DNA from: an uncultured Gemmatimonadales bacterium
GTDB lineage: Bacteria; Gemmatimonadota; Gemmatimonadetes; JACCXV01; JAHWKZ01
NCBI GenBank assembly: GCA_947259315.1
Contig: CAMYLR010000003.1
Location: forward strand, 62,001-126,000
Length of the DNA: 64,000 nt
Reading direction: 5' to 3'
Shown: positions 24,206 through 42,220 of the stretch, one piece after another
How the letters are laid out: each line of letters opens with the position of its first letter
Position numbering within the stretch: the stretch's first letter is position 1
Notes under the pieces: generated by a model
The model's database searches: none
What the model saw: only the letters and a program-made list of their open reading frames with translations
Told to the model about the DNA's origin: nothing
Translations under genes and position numbers: made by a program

Positions 24206-25507
24206 TCAGCGCGCGGCGGGTTCCACGGTCACATTGTGGAGCTCGCCTTCGTGTTCGTACACGAGCGGGTACGAGACCCCTGCCTCCAGGTCCGAGAGTA
24301 CTGCCGTGTAGCCGTAGACGTCGTCGATCTCGCGATCGGCGAGTTCGAGCAGCACATCACCAGCGGATACGCCGGCCGCGTCCGCCGGCCCGCCCGGACG
24401 CACCGAGGCCACCTTCAATCCCGGTCCGGGAAAGCTGTACTCGGGGATAACCCCGAGCCCGACCGAAAAAGCCGCCGCCCTGCGCTGGGTGGTGGGGGCT
24501 ACCGCGTATGGGATCTCGAGCCCGGTGCTGGCGATCGTTTCGGTGATCGTGGAGACGAGGCTCGCGACGCGGACAGCACCGGCGGCGTCGATAGTGGCCA
24601 GATCATCGCTCGGCCGATGGTACTCTTCGTGGGCACCCGTGAAGAACCATAACACCGGTATCTGGGCCCCATAGAAGGACGACTGATCGCTCGGCCCGAA
24701 GCCATCCGGCACACGAGCGATGGACAACTCCCCGGAATCCAAGTCGTCTAGAATCTCCGGCCAGACGGGCGACGTTCCCGTACCGTGTACCGTCAACTGC
24801 TCTCGCAACCGGCCCACCATGTCGAGATTCAGCATGGCGACCGTCTGCTCGAGCGGCCACAACGGGTGAGCGACGTAGAACTGCGAGCCCAGTGTTCCCA
24901 GTTCCTCCCCGCCAAAGGCGATAAAGATCAACGTTCTCCCCATCGGACGAGCCACGAAGTGCTGCGCCAACTCGAGCAGCACGGCCACGCCGGACGCATT
25001 GTCGTCGGCTCCGTTATGGATCGCGCGCTCACCCGGCGTCAACGAACCTCGCCCACCGAATCCCAAATGGTCGTAGTGGGCGCCGATCACGATGGCGTCG
25101 TCGGCCAACTCAGGGTCGATGCCGGGTACGATCCCGATGATATTGGAGGTTGACAGCATCTCGTCGCCGCCGGACGACGCTTCGGGACTCGCATGTGGAT
25201 CGCGAAGGACGGCTGGTGAAAAGGTGAATCGCTGGAGATAGTCGCCCTCGATCGGTTGCAGTCCGATCGATCGAAAACGCTCGGCGAGATACCGCGATGC
25301 ACGCTCACTACCCGGGCTACCTGCTTCCCGGCCTTCGAGCGAATCAGCCGCCAGCACCGCAATGGTCGCGCAGATCTCGGCGACAGTAATCTCCAGCTGT
25401 GCCGACGCGGCACCGCCTTCGGTTCCACACGTATCTTCCGCCGGACCCTGCGCCCAGAGAGGCGCTGCCAGCGCGATGAGAGGTAAGACGATCGTAAACG
25501 ACTTCAT
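24206..25507 (-). CDS. Secreted M28 family metallopeptidase with PDZ domain
   Basis: Exported di-zinc aminopeptidase of 433 residues. A signal peptide (about 1-21, ending PLWAQ) precedes the M28 domain with the expected ligands: GAHYDHLGF (His, Asp), GADDNASG (Asp), GGEELGTLGS (catalytic Glu pair), NLDMVGR (Asp) and HEEYHRPSDD (His). The C-terminal 95 residues form a PDZ domain (GPADAAGVSAGDVLLEL) that may restrain or guide substrate. I chose the ATG at 25507 where the signal peptide begins; a longer frame exists to 25627 but runs into the divergent lipoprotein gene. Confidence 0.92.
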   Translation of the reverse strand: MKSFTIVLPLIALAAPLWAQGPAEDTCGTEGGAASAQLEITVAEICATIAVLAADSLEGREAGSPGSERASRYLAERFRSIGLQPIEGDYLQRFTFSPAVLRDPHASPEASSGGDEMLSTSNIIGIVPGIDPELADDAIVIGAHYDHLGFGGRGSLTPGERAIHNGADDNASGVAVLLELAQHFVARPMGRTLIFIAFGGEELGTLGSQFYVAHPLWPLEQTVAMLNLDMVGRLREQLTVHGTGTSPVWPEILDDLDSGELSIARVPDGFGPSDQSSFYGAQIPVLWFFTGAHEEYHRPSDDLATIDAAGAVRVASLVSTITETIASTGLEIPYAVAPTTQRRAAAFSVGLGVIPEYSFPGPGLKVASVRPGGPADAAGVSAGDVLLELADREIDDVYGYTAVLSDLEAGVSYPLVYEHEGELHNVTVEPAAR

Positions 25508-35022: not shown

Positions 35023-36852
35023 CTAAGCCGGCAGCTCGGCGAACTGAAGCTCGTATAAACGGCTGTAGCGGCCGGCGCGGGCGAGCAGGTCGGTGTGAGA
35101 GCCGGTCTCGACGATTCGGCCGCCCTCGATGACGACGATCTGGTCGGCATGTAGCACGGTCGAGAGTCGGTGCGCGATCACGATCGCGGTGCGATTCTCC
35201 ATCAACCTCGCCACCGCTTGCTGGACGAGCATCTCACTCTCCGAGTCGAGCGCCGACGTAGCCTCATCAAAGATCAGAATCGGGGGGTTCTTGTAGATCG
35301 CACGCGCGATCGCGATCCGCTGCCGCTGTCCGCCCGAGAACCGAACGCCGCGCTCGCCGATCACGGTATCGAAGCCTTGTGGGAGTGCCTCGACGAAGTC
35401 GATCGCGTTGGCCGCGCTGGCGGCTTCTTCCAGTCGCTTTCGATCCGGTTGCTCGCCGTATGCGATGTTGTTGGCTACGGTATCGTGAAACAGGATGACC
35501 TCTTGTGTCACGATCCCCATTTGACGCCGCAGATCCTTGAGGCTGACTTCCCGCAAATCGTGATCGTCGAACTCGATCCGCCCCGACGTCGGGTCGTAGA
35601 ATCGCGGCAGCAGGTCCACCAGCGTTGATTTGCCGCCGCCCGAGGGCCCGACCAGCGCCACGACCTCGCCTCTCTGAATCGTAAACGAAACATCGTGCAG
35701 TACGGGGCCGTCGCCCTGTTCGTACGAGAAGCAGACGTTGTCGTACTGGATCTGACGCTCGAACCCTGAAATACGTGTTGGGTGCACCGCTTCGACGACG
35801 TCCGGCTCGGTGTCGAGTACCGCGAAGATGCGTTCGCAACCCGCCAAGGCTGGTTGTACGTCCTCATTGAGTTTGGAGAGGTACTTGAGCGGACTCGACA
35901 GCTTGAGCGATGCGACAAGGAACACGAAAAACGTTTCTGGCGCGAGCGAGCCATCGAGCAGGATCATCCGTCCGCCGATATAGAGGATCAAAACCACTGC
36001 GCCGGCGAGTAGGAACTCGGAGACCGGAGTGCCCAATAACGCGTACTTTCTCGATCTCACCATGTTGCGCTGATACGCTTCGTTGTCCCGGTTGAACCGC
36101 CGCTGCTCGAACCGCTCGGCGCTAAACGCTCGTACGATCCGAATACCGGCAACGTTCTCCTGAAGCGCACTGGTGATATCACCCAGCCTGCGCAGCAGCT
36201 GCCGGTTGACACGACGCAGCTTGCGCGCGATAAGAACCGTGATCCACGCGATGGGTGGCAGTATCAACATCGCAAGAAGCGTCAGCTGCCACGAGATCGC
36301 GACCAGGATGAACAGCGTCACCATTACCTCGAGCGTGTGTTGGGTGACGCGATAGACGCCGGTGGAGATAGCGCTCTTCAAGAGCTGTACGTCGTGGGTC
36401 AGGATCGACATCAGCTGGCCCGAGCGGGTTCGCTGGAAGTATCGGAACGAGAGTCGTTGGATATGCTCAAAAAACTCGTTTCGCAGATCACGCAGCGCGC
36501 GCTCCAGAACGACTTGCGGCAGGAACTGCTGGAAGTAACCCAGCACCGCTTTGACGAAGTAGATGGCGAGGATCACCAGGCACACGTTGGTCAGTGTGCC
36601 CAACGCCGTCGGCTCCTCCAGAAACGTGAACAGCTCGTACTTGAAGAAGTGCTCGACTCGCCCCATGAAGTGATCCGGAGCGATAGGAACCGTGGTCACC
36701 GACGGGCCGCCGAAAAGCACTTGCAGAAACGGGATCAGGACCACGATTGAAAACCCATCGACCAGTGCGAACAGCACCATGAGGAGAAACGACAGGCCCA
36801 GCAGCCCGGCGTGAGGTCTCAGGTAACCCAGCATGCGGAGATACGTGTTCAT
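35023..36852 (-). CDS. MsbA-like ABC exporter (fused permease-ATPase)
   Basis: Half-transporter of 609 residues: six helices in the first 310 residues, then an ATPase with Walker A GPSGGGKSTL, signature FSGGQRQRIAIARAI, Walker B PILIFDEATSALDSES and H-loop IAHRLST. Type IV exporters of this form flip lipid A-core or other lipids across the inner membrane and work as homodimers. The neighbours on the same operon (a methyltransferase and a small kinase) favour an envelope lipid. The N-terminal helices have a long periplasmic insertion near residues 60-95. It lies 18 bases after the PorX-like gene. Confidence 0.9.
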   Translation of the reverse strand: MNTYLRMLGYLRPHAGLLGLSFLLMVLFALVDGFSIVVLIPFLQVLFGGPSVTTVPIAPDHFMGRVEHFFKYELFTFLEEPTALGTLTNVCLVILAIYFVKAVLGYFQQFLPQVVLERALRDLRNEFFEHIQRLSFRYFQRTRSGQLMSILTHDVQLLKSAISTGVYRVTQHTLEVMVTLFILVAISWQLTLLAMLILPPIAWITVLIARKLRRVNRQLLRRLGDITSALQENVAGIRIVRAFSAERFEQRRFNRDNEAYQRNMVRSRKYALLGTPVSEFLLAGAVVLILYIGGRMILLDGSLAPETFFVFLVASLKLSSPLKYLSKLNEDVQPALAGCERIFAVLDTEPDVVEAVHPTRISGFERQIQYDNVCFSYEQGDGPVLHDVSFTIQRGEVVALVGPSGGGKSTLVDLLPRFYDPTSGRIEFDDHDLREVSLKDLRRQMGIVTQEVILFHDTVANNIAYGEQPDRKRLEEAASAANAIDFVEALPQGFDTVIGERGVRFSGGQRQRIAIARAIYKNPPILIFDEATSALDSESEMLVQQAVARLMENRTAIVIAHRLSTVLHADQIVVIEGGRIVETGSHTDLLARAGRYSRLYELQFAELPA

Positions 36853-36870: not shown

Positions 36871-38439
36871 CTAGCGCGGCGTCAGCGTGGCCACCGGGAG
36901 AATCAGCTCCTCGAGCGAGATCCCACCGTGAAGAAAGGCCCCGTAGTAGCGGCTTTGGTACTCGCGCAGCTTGGTCGGGTAGACGAAATAGTAATCCTCG
37001 ACCGCCATAAGGGCAGCGACGTGGAAGCCCATGTCGGGTAGGCCGATGCTGCCCGGGTCTGCGATCCGAAAGGCAGTCTCCGGTTCTTCGGAGCGAATGT
37101 TGTTTCCGAACTTGTAGCGCAGGTTCTGCGAGGCGTCGCGTCGGGCGTAAACGGTAGCCGGGCGCAGGCAGTGAACCGAGCCGTGGTCGGTGGTGAGCAC
37201 GACCCGCACACCCTGACGAGCGGACTGCGACAACAGGTCGTAGAGCGGTGAGTGCAAGAACCACGAGCGGGTCAGAGATCGAAACGCTTGTTGGTCGGGG
37301 GCGATCTCGAGCAGGATCTCGGATTCCGATCGCCCGTGCGTGAGCACATCGATGAAGTTGAAGACGAACGCGGACAGCCGGCTCTGGAAACATTGCGGCA
37401 GCTTTTTGAGCGCCGCTGTGCCTTCGGCGGCCGTGAAAACCTTGGTGTACTGTACCGGTCCGATGTCACCGACATCCTTGCGCGCCAGCTGAAGCTCCAA
37501 CAGCTCGCGCTCGTGTGGATTGAGCGAGCCCTCCACGTCCGCATCGCCGAGCCACAGGTCGGGTCGCTTCTCGGCGATCTGGCCGGGCAGCCAACCGCTG
37601 AAGATGGCGTTGCGCGAGTACGGTGTGGCCGATGGCAGGATCGAACCCGCATATGCTTCCTCGATCGTGAAATCGCTCTCCAGCGTGTCACGAATCGTCA
37701 ACCACTGATCCAGTCGCAGGCAGTCGATCAACACGAAGAAAACGGGCCCTGGATCGGCTCGCAACAGCGGGATCACGTGCGCCTCCATCAGGTCCGGCGA
37801 CAGCAGTGGTCGGTGACCGGGCTTTGACGCCACCCACTCAGGGTAGTGGGTCTGGACAAAGCGGCTGAAATCGGCGTTGGCGGCTTTGCTCAGCTCGGCT
37901 TGGCTCTGCAACAGCCCCTGCTCGCCGGCATCGAGCAACCGCAGCTCCCAACTGAGGAGCTCACGGTACAGCTCGACCCAATCGCTCCAAGACGAGCGCC
38001 CCTTCCGTAGTTCGTCGAGCTCGACGTAACGCTGGCTGAAAGCCTGTGCGATCGTTTGATGTCGGATTCGCGACCCCTCGAGCAAGCGCTTGAGGACTGA
38101 AAGCACCTGATTCGGGTTGATCGGCTTGACGAGGTAGTCGTCGACCCGGCTGCCGATCGCCTGGTCCATGAGACCTTCCTCTTCACTCTTCGTAACCATC
38201 ACCACGGGCAGCCGCGGATGGTTTTCTCGGATGCGCTGAAACACAGTCATCCCGCGCATGCCAGGCATCTGCTCATCGAGCAGCACACAGTCGTAGCCGT
38301 TCTCGGAGATGAGGGCGAGGGCGTCCTCGCCGTTGGGCGCGGTGGTGACCTCGAACCCTCGGTTCTGGAGAAACAGGATATGCGACTTGAGGCCGGCGAC
38401 TTCGTCGTCGACCCAGAGTATGCGCTTGGCTTCATTCAT
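36871..38439 (-). CDS. PorX-like response regulator with PglZ (alkaline phosphatase fold) domain
   Basis: Protein of 522 residues, the length of PorX. A receiver domain (1-120) has acidic WVDDE (Asp 11, Asp 12), phosphoacceptor Asp 55 (VLLDEQMPG), Thr 83 and Lys 105 (VKPI). A helical linker (125-200) leads to a PglZ domain with FVLIDCLRLDQW, the nucleophile-like Thr 272 in PSATPYSRNAIFSG, and LTTDHGSVHC. In Bacteroidota PorX controls the type IX secretion system, and its PglZ domain is reported to be a metal-dependent phosphodiesterase. Here it heads an operon with an MsbA-like exporter. I chose the ATG at 38439, where the receiver begins; the open frame upstream is not natural. Confidence 0.88.
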   Translation of the reverse strand: MNEAKRILWVDDEVAGLKSHILFLQNRGFEVTTAPNGEDALALISENGYDCVLLDEQMPGMRGMTVFQRIRENHPRLPVVMVTKSEEEGLMDQAIGSRVDDYLVKPINPNQVLSVLKRLLEGSRIRHQTIAQAFSQRYVELDELRKGRSSWSDWVELYRELLSWELRLLDAGEQGLLQSQAELSKAANADFSRFVQTHYPEWVASKPGHRPLLSPDLMEAHVIPLLRADPGPVFFVLIDCLRLDQWLTIRDTLESDFTIEEAYAGSILPSATPYSRNAIFSGWLPGQIAEKRPDLWLGDADVEGSLNPHERELLELQLARKDVGDIGPVQYTKVFTAAEGTAALKKLPQCFQSRLSAFVFNFIDVLTHGRSESEILLEIAPDQQAFRSLTRSWFLHSPLYDLLSQSARQGVRVVLTTDHGSVHCLRPATVYARRDASQNLRYKFGNNIRSEEPETAFRIADPGSIGLPDMGFHVAALMAVEDYYFVYPTKLREYQSRYYGAFLHGGISLEELILPVATLTPR

Positions 38440-38479
38440 AGGGGCTCGAATCCACGGATACCCCGAGGTGGCCGGTCTG

Positions 38480-38511
38480 GTGCCGTGCAACCCGCGGTTG
38501 CGGTACGGCAC
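38480..38511 (-). other. Stem-loop in the leader region of the PorX-like gene
   Basis: GCAACC pairs with GGTTGC across a CGC loop, and GTGCCGT pairs with ACGGCAC, giving 13 pairs with a three-base bulge. It lies about 40 bases before the PorX-like ATG and in the promoter region of NifU on the other strand. No T-tract follows it on either strand, so it is more likely a leader structure than a terminator. Confidence 0.55.
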
Positions 38512-38582
38512 GCAGTTGCCTGTCGGGTGTAAGAACCGGTAATTTCGTGTTTCTAGAACGTTCAACGTAGGACGATACGACA

Positions 38583-38945: not shown

Positions 38946-40226
38946 GTGAAACCACTGTGGCAGCGCCAGCTCTATAACCGGCTGATCGTCCCGGTCACTC
39001 GCGTGGCGACGCCGGTTGTGACTCGGGCCGTCCCCAAGGTCGGTCGCGGGATAGCCGCGCGCCAGGGCGTGATCGCGCGATGGCAGCGGGCCGCGGAGGC
39101 GGCCGCTGGGCGGTCACCGGTTATCTGGCTGCACGCGGCCAGCGCCGGCGAGACGCTCCAGGCGCGACCGCTGGCGATGGCGATCCGCCACGCCCGTCCC
39201 GAAGCGGCGCTCTTTTTTACCCATTTCTCACCCTCCGCCGAACGGCTCGTCCAGTCATGGGACGTGCCCGACGCGGTGGATTATCTCCCACTCGACTATC
39301 CGGCGCAGACGCGTCAGCTGGTCGGTCTGCTGGCGCCCGATGCGCTCGTGCTGGTGGGTGGCGAGACGTGGCCGAACCTCGTTTGGGCGGCGTCGGATGC
39401 AGGTGTGATGCTTGGACAAGTGTGTTGTCGTCTAGTGGGTTCGGCGCGGGTCAAATGGCCGGTGCGGAGCCTGACCCGGGATCTCTATCGCCGTTTTGAT
39501 GCCGTCGCGGCGATCGGAACCGCCGACGCTGAGCGATTGGCGAAGCTAGGGGTCGATGCGAAGAGGGTATGTGTCGCGGGAGACACTCGAGCCGACGTGA
39601 CACTGGAACGAGTGCGCGAGGCACCATCTGATGAAGTAGAGTGGCAACTGCCCGAAGGAGGGGGTCCGGTGATCGTGGCCGGCAGCACTTGGCCGGCAGA
39701 TGAGCGCGTGGTATTGGCGGCGCTGGCTCGGCTCAGGACGACGCACCCCAACGCGGTCGCGATCGTCGCACCGCACGAGCCGACCGACAAGGCGATCGCG
39801 CGGCTAAAGTCGCGGGCTCGAGGGTTTGGTTTTGCGACCTGCCGGTTCGGTCGGGAGGAGCGTAGAGCCGATTGCGCGGTTGTGATCGTCGATCGGGTCG
39901 GGCTGCTGTACCGGTTGTACGCGGTCGCCGATCTTGCCTACGTCGGCGGGAGCTTTGGCGGCGCGGTCCACAATGTGATGGAGCCCGCCGCGCACGGGGT
40001 CCCGGTCACGATCGGGGCCGACCACGGTTACCCGCATGAAGTCGATGTGCTGGAGCGCGCTGGCGGATTGGCGGTCATCGACTCGCCGGCCGAACTGGCC
40101 GCTCGCTGGCGGGCGTGGCTTCCAGGGGACGGGGCCGGCGTGGCCGCCAGGACCGCGGTTGAGCAAATGGCGGGAGCCACCGAACGCACGCTGACGTTCC
40201 TGCGCGAGGGCGGGTTCCCGGTTTAG
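38946..40226 (+). CDS. waaA: 3-deoxy-D-manno-octulosonic acid transferase
   Basis: Membrane-associated GT-B glycosyltransferase of 426 residues that adds Kdo to lipid A precursors, the first step of the LPS core. It has an N-terminal helix, HAASAGETLQARPLA (the catalytic Glu is in the HxxSxGE motif), VGGETWPNLV in the middle, GDTRADVT, and the C-terminal donor site YVGGSFGGAVHNVMEPAAHG. The start is a GTG at 38946; TATATT at 38927-38932 lies 13 bases before it and there is no clear Shine-Dalgarno. With kdkA at 12.9 kb it implies a Kdo-phosphate core. Confidence 0.93.
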   Translation: MKPLWQRQLYNRLIVPVTRVATPVVTRAVPKVGRGIAARQGVIARWQRAAEAAAGRSPVIWLHAASAGETLQARPLAMAIRHARPEAALFFTHFSPSAERLVQSWDVPDAVDYLPLDYPAQTRQLVGLLAPDALVLVGGETWPNLVWAASDAGVMLGQVCCRLVGSARVKWPVRSLTRDLYRRFDAVAAIGTADAERLAKLGVDAKRVCVAGDTRADVTLERVREAPSDEVEWQLPEGGGPVIVAGSTWPADERVVLAALARLRTTHPNAVAIVAPHEPTDKAIARLKSRARGFGFATCRFGREERRADCAVVIVDRVGLLYRLYAVADLAYVGGSFGGAVHNVMEPAAHGVPVTIGADHGYPHEVDVLERAGGLAVIDSPAELAARWRAWLPGDGAGVAARTAVEQMAGATERTLTFLREGGFPV

Positions 40227-40259: not shown

Positions 40260-40958
40260 TCAGCAACCGCCGCCGCGACGCGGCAATCGTCCCCGGGAGC
40301 TGGCACCGATGATGCCGCCCAGGATGCCGCCGCCCCGTCCGCTGGTAGCGCCGCCTATCGCACCGCCGATACCGCCCGCCACGGCGCCACCGCGTCCACC
40401 CAAAATCGCGCCGATCGAAGCGCCAACCGCGGCGCCCACGATGGCGTCCTCGGCGCGGTTCGAGCCGCCGTCTGGGAACGTGGTTGGCGTCACCGTCGGG
40501 GGTACGGTCGCGACCGGGTCCGGCGTGTTCGGGGCGTCAGCGACGTCAGGCGCGTCGGCCGGTTCGGGGTCGGGCACGACTGGCGTCGTCGCCGGCTCCA
40601 CGATCGGCTCGTCGACGATCTCGGGGACCGGCTCGCCCGATTCCTCGGGCTCGGTCGTAGCCTCGGCCGGTGCCTCGATGTACACCGTTCGGTAGATCAC
40701 CGTCGGGCCCGGCTCGGGCCGCTTGACGGTGCGCTTCTTGGCTTGGGTCTCTGGCGCCGGGTCGCCGAGCAACACGACCTCGGGTGCGGCACCATCGGGG
40801 CCCATTGGCATACCCTGATCCGCGTTCGTCAGTGCTGTTGTTTGCGAGGGCTTGAACACCACGCGCGGGGTGGTGTCGCGTGACGCGGGCTCGCCCTGGC
40901 AGGCGAGCACGCCGGCAATCAAGACCGCGGCCGGGATCAGCGTACGCGAACGGGTCAT
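40260..40958 (-). CDS. Gly-rich secreted lipoprotein of a duplicated pair, member A
   Basis: Probable lipoprotein of 232 residues; lipobox GVLAC gives Cys about residue 20. A central Pro/Glu/Asp-rich region (about 70-165) is disordered, and the C-terminus is a glycine-zipper stretch (AVGASIGAILGGRGGAVAGG) ending in a basic RGRLPRRGGGC. The MGPDGAAPEVVLLGDPAP motif recurs in the adjacent gene as LGPADAAPELVVLDDMAA, so the two are related. GGAGG sits seven bases before the ATG. No function is known; glycine zippers often associate with membranes. Confidence 0.75.
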   Translation of the reverse strand: MTRSRTLIPAAVLIAGVLACQGEPASRDTTPRVVFKPSQTTALTNADQGMPMGPDGAAPEVVLLGDPAPETQAKKRTVKRPEPGPTVIYRTVYIEAPAEATTEPEESGEPVPEIVDEPIVEPATTPVVPDPEPADAPDVADAPNTPDPVATVPPTVTPTTFPDGGSNRAEDAIVGAAVGASIGAILGGRGGAVAGGIGGAIGGATSGRGGGILGGIIGASSRGRLPRRGGGC

Positions 40959-41072
40959 CTTACAACCTCCGATGGGGACTTCGGCTGGCTACGGACACGA
41001 GTCTTGTACGCCTCGGTCCGCTGGGGGTTCCCGACTTCAAAAGGAGTCGGCTTCGACCGTAGACGGTTGCGG

Positions 41073-41654
41073 CTAGAAACGGACCCCGCGTCGCCCACCG
41101 AGGCCGACCCCGCTCAGCCCGGCACCGCGGTCGAAGACCAGCGTCGCCCCTGAGATGCCACCGGGGCGGCAATCTCCGCCACCAACCGAGATGCCGATGC
41201 GGAAGCCGCCTCGCCGTCCACCGGTGTCGGAGACGGTCGAGATCCCACCGCGCGCCGTATCGCGCCGCGGATCGACGCGAATGGAGCGCCGCGGATTGGG
41301 TTGTTCCAGCGCCAGCGATGGCGCGTCGATCGTCAACGCCTCGCTGTTGACCACGGTTGCGGTTGCTGCCACGGGTTTGACCGGGACGGCTGGTCCCTGG
41401 GGAGCTACGACTCTGCGCGGCGTCGACTTCGCTTCTTCGGCTGCCATGTCGTCGAGAACGACCAGCTCGGGTGCCGCGTCGGCCGGACCCAGAGCAAACC
41501 CGTCGATCGGTTCGTCGTTGACAACGGTTGGGGCCGCGAACGGCGCGAGGTTGGCTTCGTACACCGGGTCGTCACGATCGCCGACAAACGCCGCGACCGT
41601 GCCCACCGCGATGACCAAAGGTGGGACTCCAAAGCGAGCTAGCTTCAACGACAT
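41073..41654 (-). CDS. Gly-rich secreted protein of a duplicated pair, member B
   Basis: Protein of 193 residues with an N-terminal signal or anchor helix (about 5-25). It shares the GPADAAPELVVLDD motif with member A, then a basic linker (RRSIRVDPRRD) and a Gly/Arg-rich end (GGRRGGFRIGISVGG) with one Cys. Its start is the ATG at 41654 with GGAGG five bases before it, and the same GGAGGTTG string precedes member A. A hairpin in the leader covers part of that site. It lies 114 bases upstream of member A and probably shares its transcript. Function unknown. Confidence 0.72.
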   Translation of the reverse strand: MSLKLARFGVPPLVIAVGTVAAFVGDRDDPVYEANLAPFAAPTVVNDEPIDGFALGPADAAPELVVLDDMAAEEAKSTPRRVVAPQGPAVPVKPVAATATVVNSEALTIDAPSLALEQPNPRRSIRVDPRRDTARGGISTVSDTGGRRGGFRIGISVGGGDCRPGGISGATLVFDRGAGLSGVGLGGRRGVRF

Positions 41655-41680
41655 CTCAACCTCCAAGCGGTACGGTTGAG
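41655..41680 (-). promoter_or_regulatory. Leader hairpin that may sequester the ribosome binding site of member B
   Basis: In the minus-strand mRNA CTCAACC (41680-41674) pairs with GGTTGAG (41661-41655) over a 12-base loop. The 3' arm directly abuts the ATG and takes up the last two bases of GGAGG. The structure could limit ribosome access; this is inferred from pairing alone. Confidence 0.45.
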
Positions 41681-41770: not shown

Positions 41771-42220
41771 TCACGCGGTCGCCTGGGCGGGCTGGCAATC
41801 GGCGCACAGCCCGGTGAACTGGACGGTCCAATTCTCGACCTTGAAGCCATTCTCGGCGTCCACCGGCGGCAGCGCCTGGCCAAGCTCTTCATCGTGTACA
41901 TCGATGATCTTCTTGCACTGACGGCAGATCAAATGATGATGAGGCCGGACGTCGACATCGTAACGCGCTTCGTTGTACAGCGGGTTGACCTTCACCACGA
42001 TCCCCAACTCTTCGAAGATCTCGAGATTCTTGTAGATCGTATTGAATGAGATCGTTGGGTATCGCTCGCGGACGGTCTGGTAGATGATCTCGGCTGAGGG
42101 GTGGCGGTTGCAGTTCGCCAACACGGCCTCAAAAGTCGCCAGCCGCTGGTGAGTGACCGACAGCCCAGCCGTCCTGCATTGGGCGATAAAACCGTCGCGC
42201 TGTTCGCTGGATAGTCTCAT
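41771..42220 (-). CDS. fur: Fur/PerR family metalloregulator
   Basis: Winged-helix regulator of 149 residues. Motifs are HQRLATFEAVLANCNRHPSA, the DNA-recognition helix region ISFNTIYKNLEIFEELG, the metal site RPHHHLICRQC, and the second CxxC (CADC, near 142) forming a structural zinc site with CRQC. The family includes Fur, PerR and Zur. The regulatory metal cannot be settled here. I chose the ATG at 42220, which has a TATAAT promoter just upstream. It lies 52 bases after the FadL-like gene. Confidence 0.88.
   Translation of the reverse strand: MRLSSEQRDGFIAQCRTAGLSVTHQRLATFEAVLANCNRHPSAEIIYQTVRERYPTISFNTIYKNLEIFEELGIVVKVNPLYNEARYDVDVRPHHHLICRQCKKIIDVHDEELGQALPPVDAENGFKVENWTVQFTGLCADCQPAQATA

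Follow-up and report, generated by a model that had tools for sequence, protein, structure and literature searches.

Two tandem genes on the minus strand, here called A and B, lie side by side within the 64,000-nucleotide stretch of an uncultured Gemmatimonadales genome that was analysed (contig CAMYLR010000003.1, positions 62,001 to 126,000; hereafter the window), and their coordinates are collected in Table 1. B is the upstream member of the pair and A the downstream one, such that the order along the minus strand runs from a FadL-type protein through a Fur-family regulator to B and then to A, with waaA converging on the pair from the opposite side. The neighbours tested with Pfam comprised the KDO transferase, Fur, the FadL-type protein, a thioesterase and others. 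A string common to both upstream regions, already remarked upon in the preliminary description of this DNA, is indeed present, with GGAGGTTG ending 4 nt before the ATG of A and 2 nt before the ATG of B; a third copy, which brings the total in the window to three, lies on the other strand at 25145. The string is read as an ordinary Shine-Dalgarno site. A promoter scan returned no sigma-70 promoters between 40000 and 42500.

Table 1. Genes A and B and adjoining features, in window coordinates
Feature	Position	Strand	Description
Gene A	40260..40958	-	232 aa; predicted lipoprotein, lipobox Cys20; motif linker ~49-69; Pro/Glu-rich linker; glycine zipper ~168-220
Putative Shine-Dalgarno site of A	40963..40970	-	GGAGGTTG
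Gene B	41073..41654	-	193 aa; N-terminal hydrophobic signal/anchor without lipobox Cys; motif ~52-69; basic Gly-rich tail
Putative Shine-Dalgarno site of B	41657..41664	-	GGAGGTTG
Fur-family regulator	41771..42220	-	upstream of B; ATG start at 42220
waaA (KDO transferase)	38946..40226	+	convergent neighbour

Two further features of the window are recorded here in their own right. A tandem array occupies positions 1832-1898, consisting of 3.2 copies of a 21-base unit, and a minus-strand gene at 36874-38532 encodes a response-regulator receiver domain (Pfam E 3.8e-26) fused to PglZ (Pfam E 6.1e-17). The receiver-PglZ architecture is that of PorX, a protein of the type IX secretion system.

Both reading frames are real genes. 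When the genome (G000) is compared with that of its sole congener in the search (G001), A differs at 17 first, 4 second and 66 third codon positions and B at 20, 6 and 73, and the dN/dS (NG86) is 0.093 for A and 0.104 for B, as compared to 0.123 for waaA and 0.100 for Fur; the first 25 residues of B show no amino-acid change at all. A and B are under purifying selection, and the codon-position differences together with the dN/dS values thus mark them as genuine, constrained genes.

The motif shared by A and B, which can be written GPxxAAPExVxLxD, is likewise real, and its strings are as quoted in the preliminary description, whose account of a tandem pair of diverged proteins is supported. Alignment of the first 100 residues of A and B scores 70, a value reached by none of 2000 residue shuffles (shuffle maximum 69), and the full-length alignment was equalled by 1 shuffle in 2000. 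Three further features noted earlier are also present: in A the lipobox and the glycine zipper, in B a basic Gly-rich tail. The Gly-rich tails of the two proteins show no likeness beyond composition (613/2000 shuffles as good). The motif is also found in a third protein, a lipoprotein of 300-302 aa encoded directly behind Fur in the sister genus, with which the N-terminal 100 residues of B align at scores of 76 (genome G002; 0/2000 shuffles as good) and 70 (genome G004; 1/2000); the corresponding full-length comparisons of B were matched by 4/2000 and 12/2000 shuffles. Among 295 genomes of the class, a profile of the motif module gave strong matches in four, namely the own genome, its congener, G002 and G004, and the other four of the eight matched genomes gave weak matches (E 4e-4 to 0.01) that were not counted as members. 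A scan of named genomes returned three loci, all on Gemmatimonadota/Gemmatimonadetes MAG contigs and apparently those of G001, G002 and G004. Of the places with weak matches in these and the following searches, one in genome G003 and L100-L103 were inspected; among the latter four, an APE-type string falls within an open reading frame at L101 only, in a long frame for which no relationship is visible. The motif is the linker of a TrbI-like/zipper lipoprotein rather than the signature of a new system.

Searches with the whole proteins gave strong matches to the pair in a single genus. Co-occurrence across genomes, proposed as a check in the preliminary description, was found in 2/2 genomes of the genus searched, with A and B adjacent and in the same order, a count that carries almost no statistical weight because it comes from two genomes of one genus; outside the genus there was no strong match to the pair. 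Strong matches to whole-length B were obtained in 2/101 genomes and to its tail in 2/198, in both cases the own genome and the congener only. The other matches were weak and not counted: 7 of the 11 genomes matched by A (E 3e-4 to 0.0095), six of them outside the motif region and one over residues 33-89, 6 of the 8 matched by B (E 3e-4 to 0.007), and 8 of the 10 matched by the B tail (E 0.002 to 0.01). A weak match of B and its tail in genome G003 was rejected, as it sits at the end of a contig, on the strand opposite a more convincing candidate gene. No relative of B was found among viral contigs and plasmids. Against Pfam, NCBIfam, PHROGs, PADLOC and PDB sequences, neither protein gave anything above a curated cut-off, and B gave no Pfam match at E <= 1. 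The weak matches that did appear were uninformative, including Bacteriocin_IIc (E 0.041), YiaD_Gzip_OmpA (E 0.18) and a PDB head-to-tail joining protein (E 0.58) for A, and the PDB aminopeptidase 1b65 (E 0.022) for B.

In the sister genus, a single lipoprotein of 302 aa (G002) or 300 aa (G004) follows Fur after a gap of 115 nt and carries both a lipobox and the motif, GIELGPSAEAAPEIVILPDP in G002 and GIEVGPAEGAPEIVILPDP in G004. In Pfam they match PF03743, the TrbI-like domain, at E 5.9e-6 (G002) and 1.5e-6 (G004), and PF13441, the YMGG-like zipper, at E 9.8e-5 (G002) and 1.7e-5 (G004), all four matches lying below the gathering scores. A aligns with them at scores of 226 and 221, and its zipper alone aligns with the G002 zipper at a score of 102, none of which was reached in 2000 shuffles. 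Cys20 of A, within the lipobox VLAC, lines up with a cysteine in each of the sister proteins. A aligns with the sister lipoprotein at the N-terminus and over the zipper, and does so in the same Fur/waaA neighbourhood, waaA of the sister genus lying 2.7-3.1 kb from the A-type gene with other genes between. The upstream leaders lend no clear support to orthology, as comparison of the leader of A with that of the sister gene gave no clear match (23 and 205 of 1000 shuffles; 159 and 886 for the congener). Between the two conserved ends, the TrbI-like stretch of the sister proteins pairs only with the Pro/Glu-rich linker of A, and with gaps, and no Pfam match to TrbI was found in A at E <= 1. Over 29 residues without a gap, A is similar to the beginning of the TrbI-like domain (11/2000 shuffles as good, or 26/2000 with a longer target), and this stretch may be a remnant of it. 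A is best read as the counterpart of the sister-genus lipoprotein, with lipobox, motif linker and zipper kept and no recognisable TrbI-like domain.

The sister-genus proteins are themselves related to a widespread group of lipoproteins that combine a TrbI-like domain with a glycine zipper. Relatives of the G004 protein were found in 26/101 genomes, the own genome included, at E <= 0.001, a count in which not every match is a full lipoprotein (no lipobox is seen in L072 or L091, for instance). The relative in the own genome, G000:C9:67144-67827, has YMGG-like (E 1.8e-6) and TrbI-like (E 2.9e-4) matches, both below the Pfam cut-off. The same contig contributes a separate observation, a reading frame (L112:7237-9315) that matches Peptidase_S13, a D-Ala-D-Ala carboxypeptidase family, over residues 242-689, and whose first 90 residues consist of Lys/Arg-rich repeats (KKATRKRK...). 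A profile was built from 17 of 28 relative loci, excluding the Fur-linked genes of G002 and G004 and leaving out 11 by choice because they were truncated, without linker or near copies of others. This profile matches the G002 and G004 proteins at 122 and 127 bits, gives weak pieces only on A (7.9 bits at the N-terminus and 3.7 bits at the zipper), and does not match B (-2.6 bits). Because A has no TrbI match and only these weak profile pieces, it is regarded as a domain-losing derivative of the group and not as a member with the complete set of domains. Like the group (e.g. G002:C112:17685-18590), A has a lipobox, a motif-bearing or proline-rich linker, a zipper and the Fur/waaA neighbourhood of the G002/G004 type; unlike the group, it lacks a recognisable TrbI-like domain, and B is without lipobox, zipper or TrbI-like domain. 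The earlier statement that no family could be recognised is only half correct: it holds for A and B at curated cut-offs, but the sister-genus counterpart of A is related to this lipoprotein group. Of the 41 genomes in the Fur search, seven that lie outside the family combine a Fur match with a match to the lipoprotein, and a loose, old link between the lipoprotein and a Fur gene is possible. As a further observation, three of these seven genomes (G007:C12, G014:C22 and G038:C1) have the lipoprotein relative and a Fur-family gene on one contig and one strand, within 7 kb of each other; the G038 pair is separated by a CcdA-like gene and an ABC exporter, both named by eye.

Protein B has only the N-terminal module in common with the sister lipoprotein. 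Its N-terminal region contains no cysteine and hence no lipobox Cys, its tail is not recognisable as a zipper (in the comparison with the G002 zipper, 163/2000 shuffles did as well), and the basic Gly-rich sequence of that tail has no convincing match. Structure prediction, suggested in the preliminary description for the Gly-rich ends, gave models of low confidence for both proteins. That of A (mean pLDDT 44.2) places helices at 168-206 and 210-220 in the zipper, with block pLDDT of 44-63, and a short helix at 11-18, the remainder being without assigned structure; the model of B (mean pLDDT 30.8) is uninformative.

Taken at a probability of roughly 0.68, the most likely explanation is that A is a derivative of a Gemmatimonadota lipoprotein without its beta domain, and that B, next to it, carries this N-terminal linker module too and probably arose by partial tandem duplication. 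A would derive from a group of lipoproteins composed of a lipobox, a proline-rich motif linker, a TrbI/VirB10-like beta domain and a glycine zipper, from which the beta domain would have been lost, and B would be a diverged partial copy in which the lipobox and zipper have disappeared or given way to other sequence. No trace of the duplication is visible in the DNA, where a repeat search gave only weak direct matches of 15-22 nt; the upstream leaders of A and B match marginally here (15/1000 shuffles) and not in the congener (349/1000). Judging from its sequence, A would be lipidated at Cys20 and then sent to the outer membrane, with its linker crossing the periplasm. B would stay in the periplasm or inner membrane, where it might use the linker common to both proteins to bind the partner that A binds; it may act with A in one of these compartments or be no more than a diverged duplicate. 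The Fur gene upstream may point to metal- or stress-linked expression.

How A might work can be framed by analogy with known proteins. Like the YMGG-like and Rick_17kDa glycine-zipper proteins and SlyB, A is predicted to be a lipoprotein and has a long hydrophobic segment of GxxxG type, but it gives no match to these Pfam models at E <= 1 and has a long Pro/Glu linker and the motif. SlyB has a glycine zipper. Under stress, this lipoprotein surrounds outer-membrane proteins with oligomeric, ring-shaped transmembrane complexes (PMC13067283), and by the same working the zipper of A could pack helices into oligomers. VirB10/TrbI of type IV secretion is matched weakly, at the level of a domain, by the sister-genus protein and the own-genome relative, but not by A or B.

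Other explanations have been weighed against this one. The preliminary description suggested that A and B might be two surface components of an undescribed system, for which no specific support was found. In a fuller form, a dedicated two-component surface system such as a mixed glycine-rich outer-membrane assembly, its members held together by function and with the motif as docking segment, would account for the adjacency of the genes in both genomes of the genus and for the purifying selection on them, including the unchanged start of B; it is nevertheless rather unlikely, as the sister genus has a motif protein with no B detected and no accessory genes were identified. Somewhat more doubtful is the proposal that A and B have no common ancestry and owe the motif to convergence or to the copying of a short segment. 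The absence of a convincing match outside the N-terminal module, of a lipobox and of a zipper speaks for it, but the genes are adjacent on the same strand, the motif is equally placed behind an N-terminal hydrophobic segment in both, and the alignment of A and B runs on past the motif on both sides. It is also conceivable, at still lower odds, that the one lipoprotein of the sister lineage has split into two co-acting proteins, A providing anchor and zipper and B a new basic Gly-rich part, both docking by the linker motif to one partner in a genus-specific envelope or surface assembly.

The weak Bacteriocin_IIc match of A, at 14.3 bits against a cut-off of 27.1, raised a further alternative, a contact-dependent bacteriocin made of two proteins on the model of Caulobacter CdzC/CdzD, which are small glycine-zipper proteins that leave the cell by type I export and are retained on its surface. 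A and B likewise form a tandem Gly-rich pair of which one member has a zipper, and an ABC exporter gene lies 3.4 kb away (35023-36852). CdzC and CdzD, however, are 86 and 84 aa long and are made with the type I exporter CdzAB and the three-TM immunity protein CdzI (PMC5380434), as against 232 and 193 aa for A and B. The signal of A is of lipobox type, the zipper is a single one with none recognisable in B, and the nearby ABC protein is MsbA-like, its best NCBIfam match being MsbA at 557.8 bits (just under the cut-off of 602) and its score for the type I exporter HlyB only 354.9 (cut-off 725.55). Peptidase_C39 is absent from the own genome (0/1), but the term C39 is also absent from the main text of the Cdz paper (PMC5380434). 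A Cdz-like role is accordingly very improbable.

If A is a lipoprotein derivative and B its partly duplicated neighbour, the locus suggests that a common envelope lipoprotein can lose a folded domain and gain a diverged neighbour, with both genes still under selection. Should the shared linker motif be a docking site, it could serve to seek the partner to which these proteins bind. The papers searched contained nothing on the TrbI-like/glycine-zipper lipoproteins of Gemmatimonadota, and the case of A and B offers a lead on this group.
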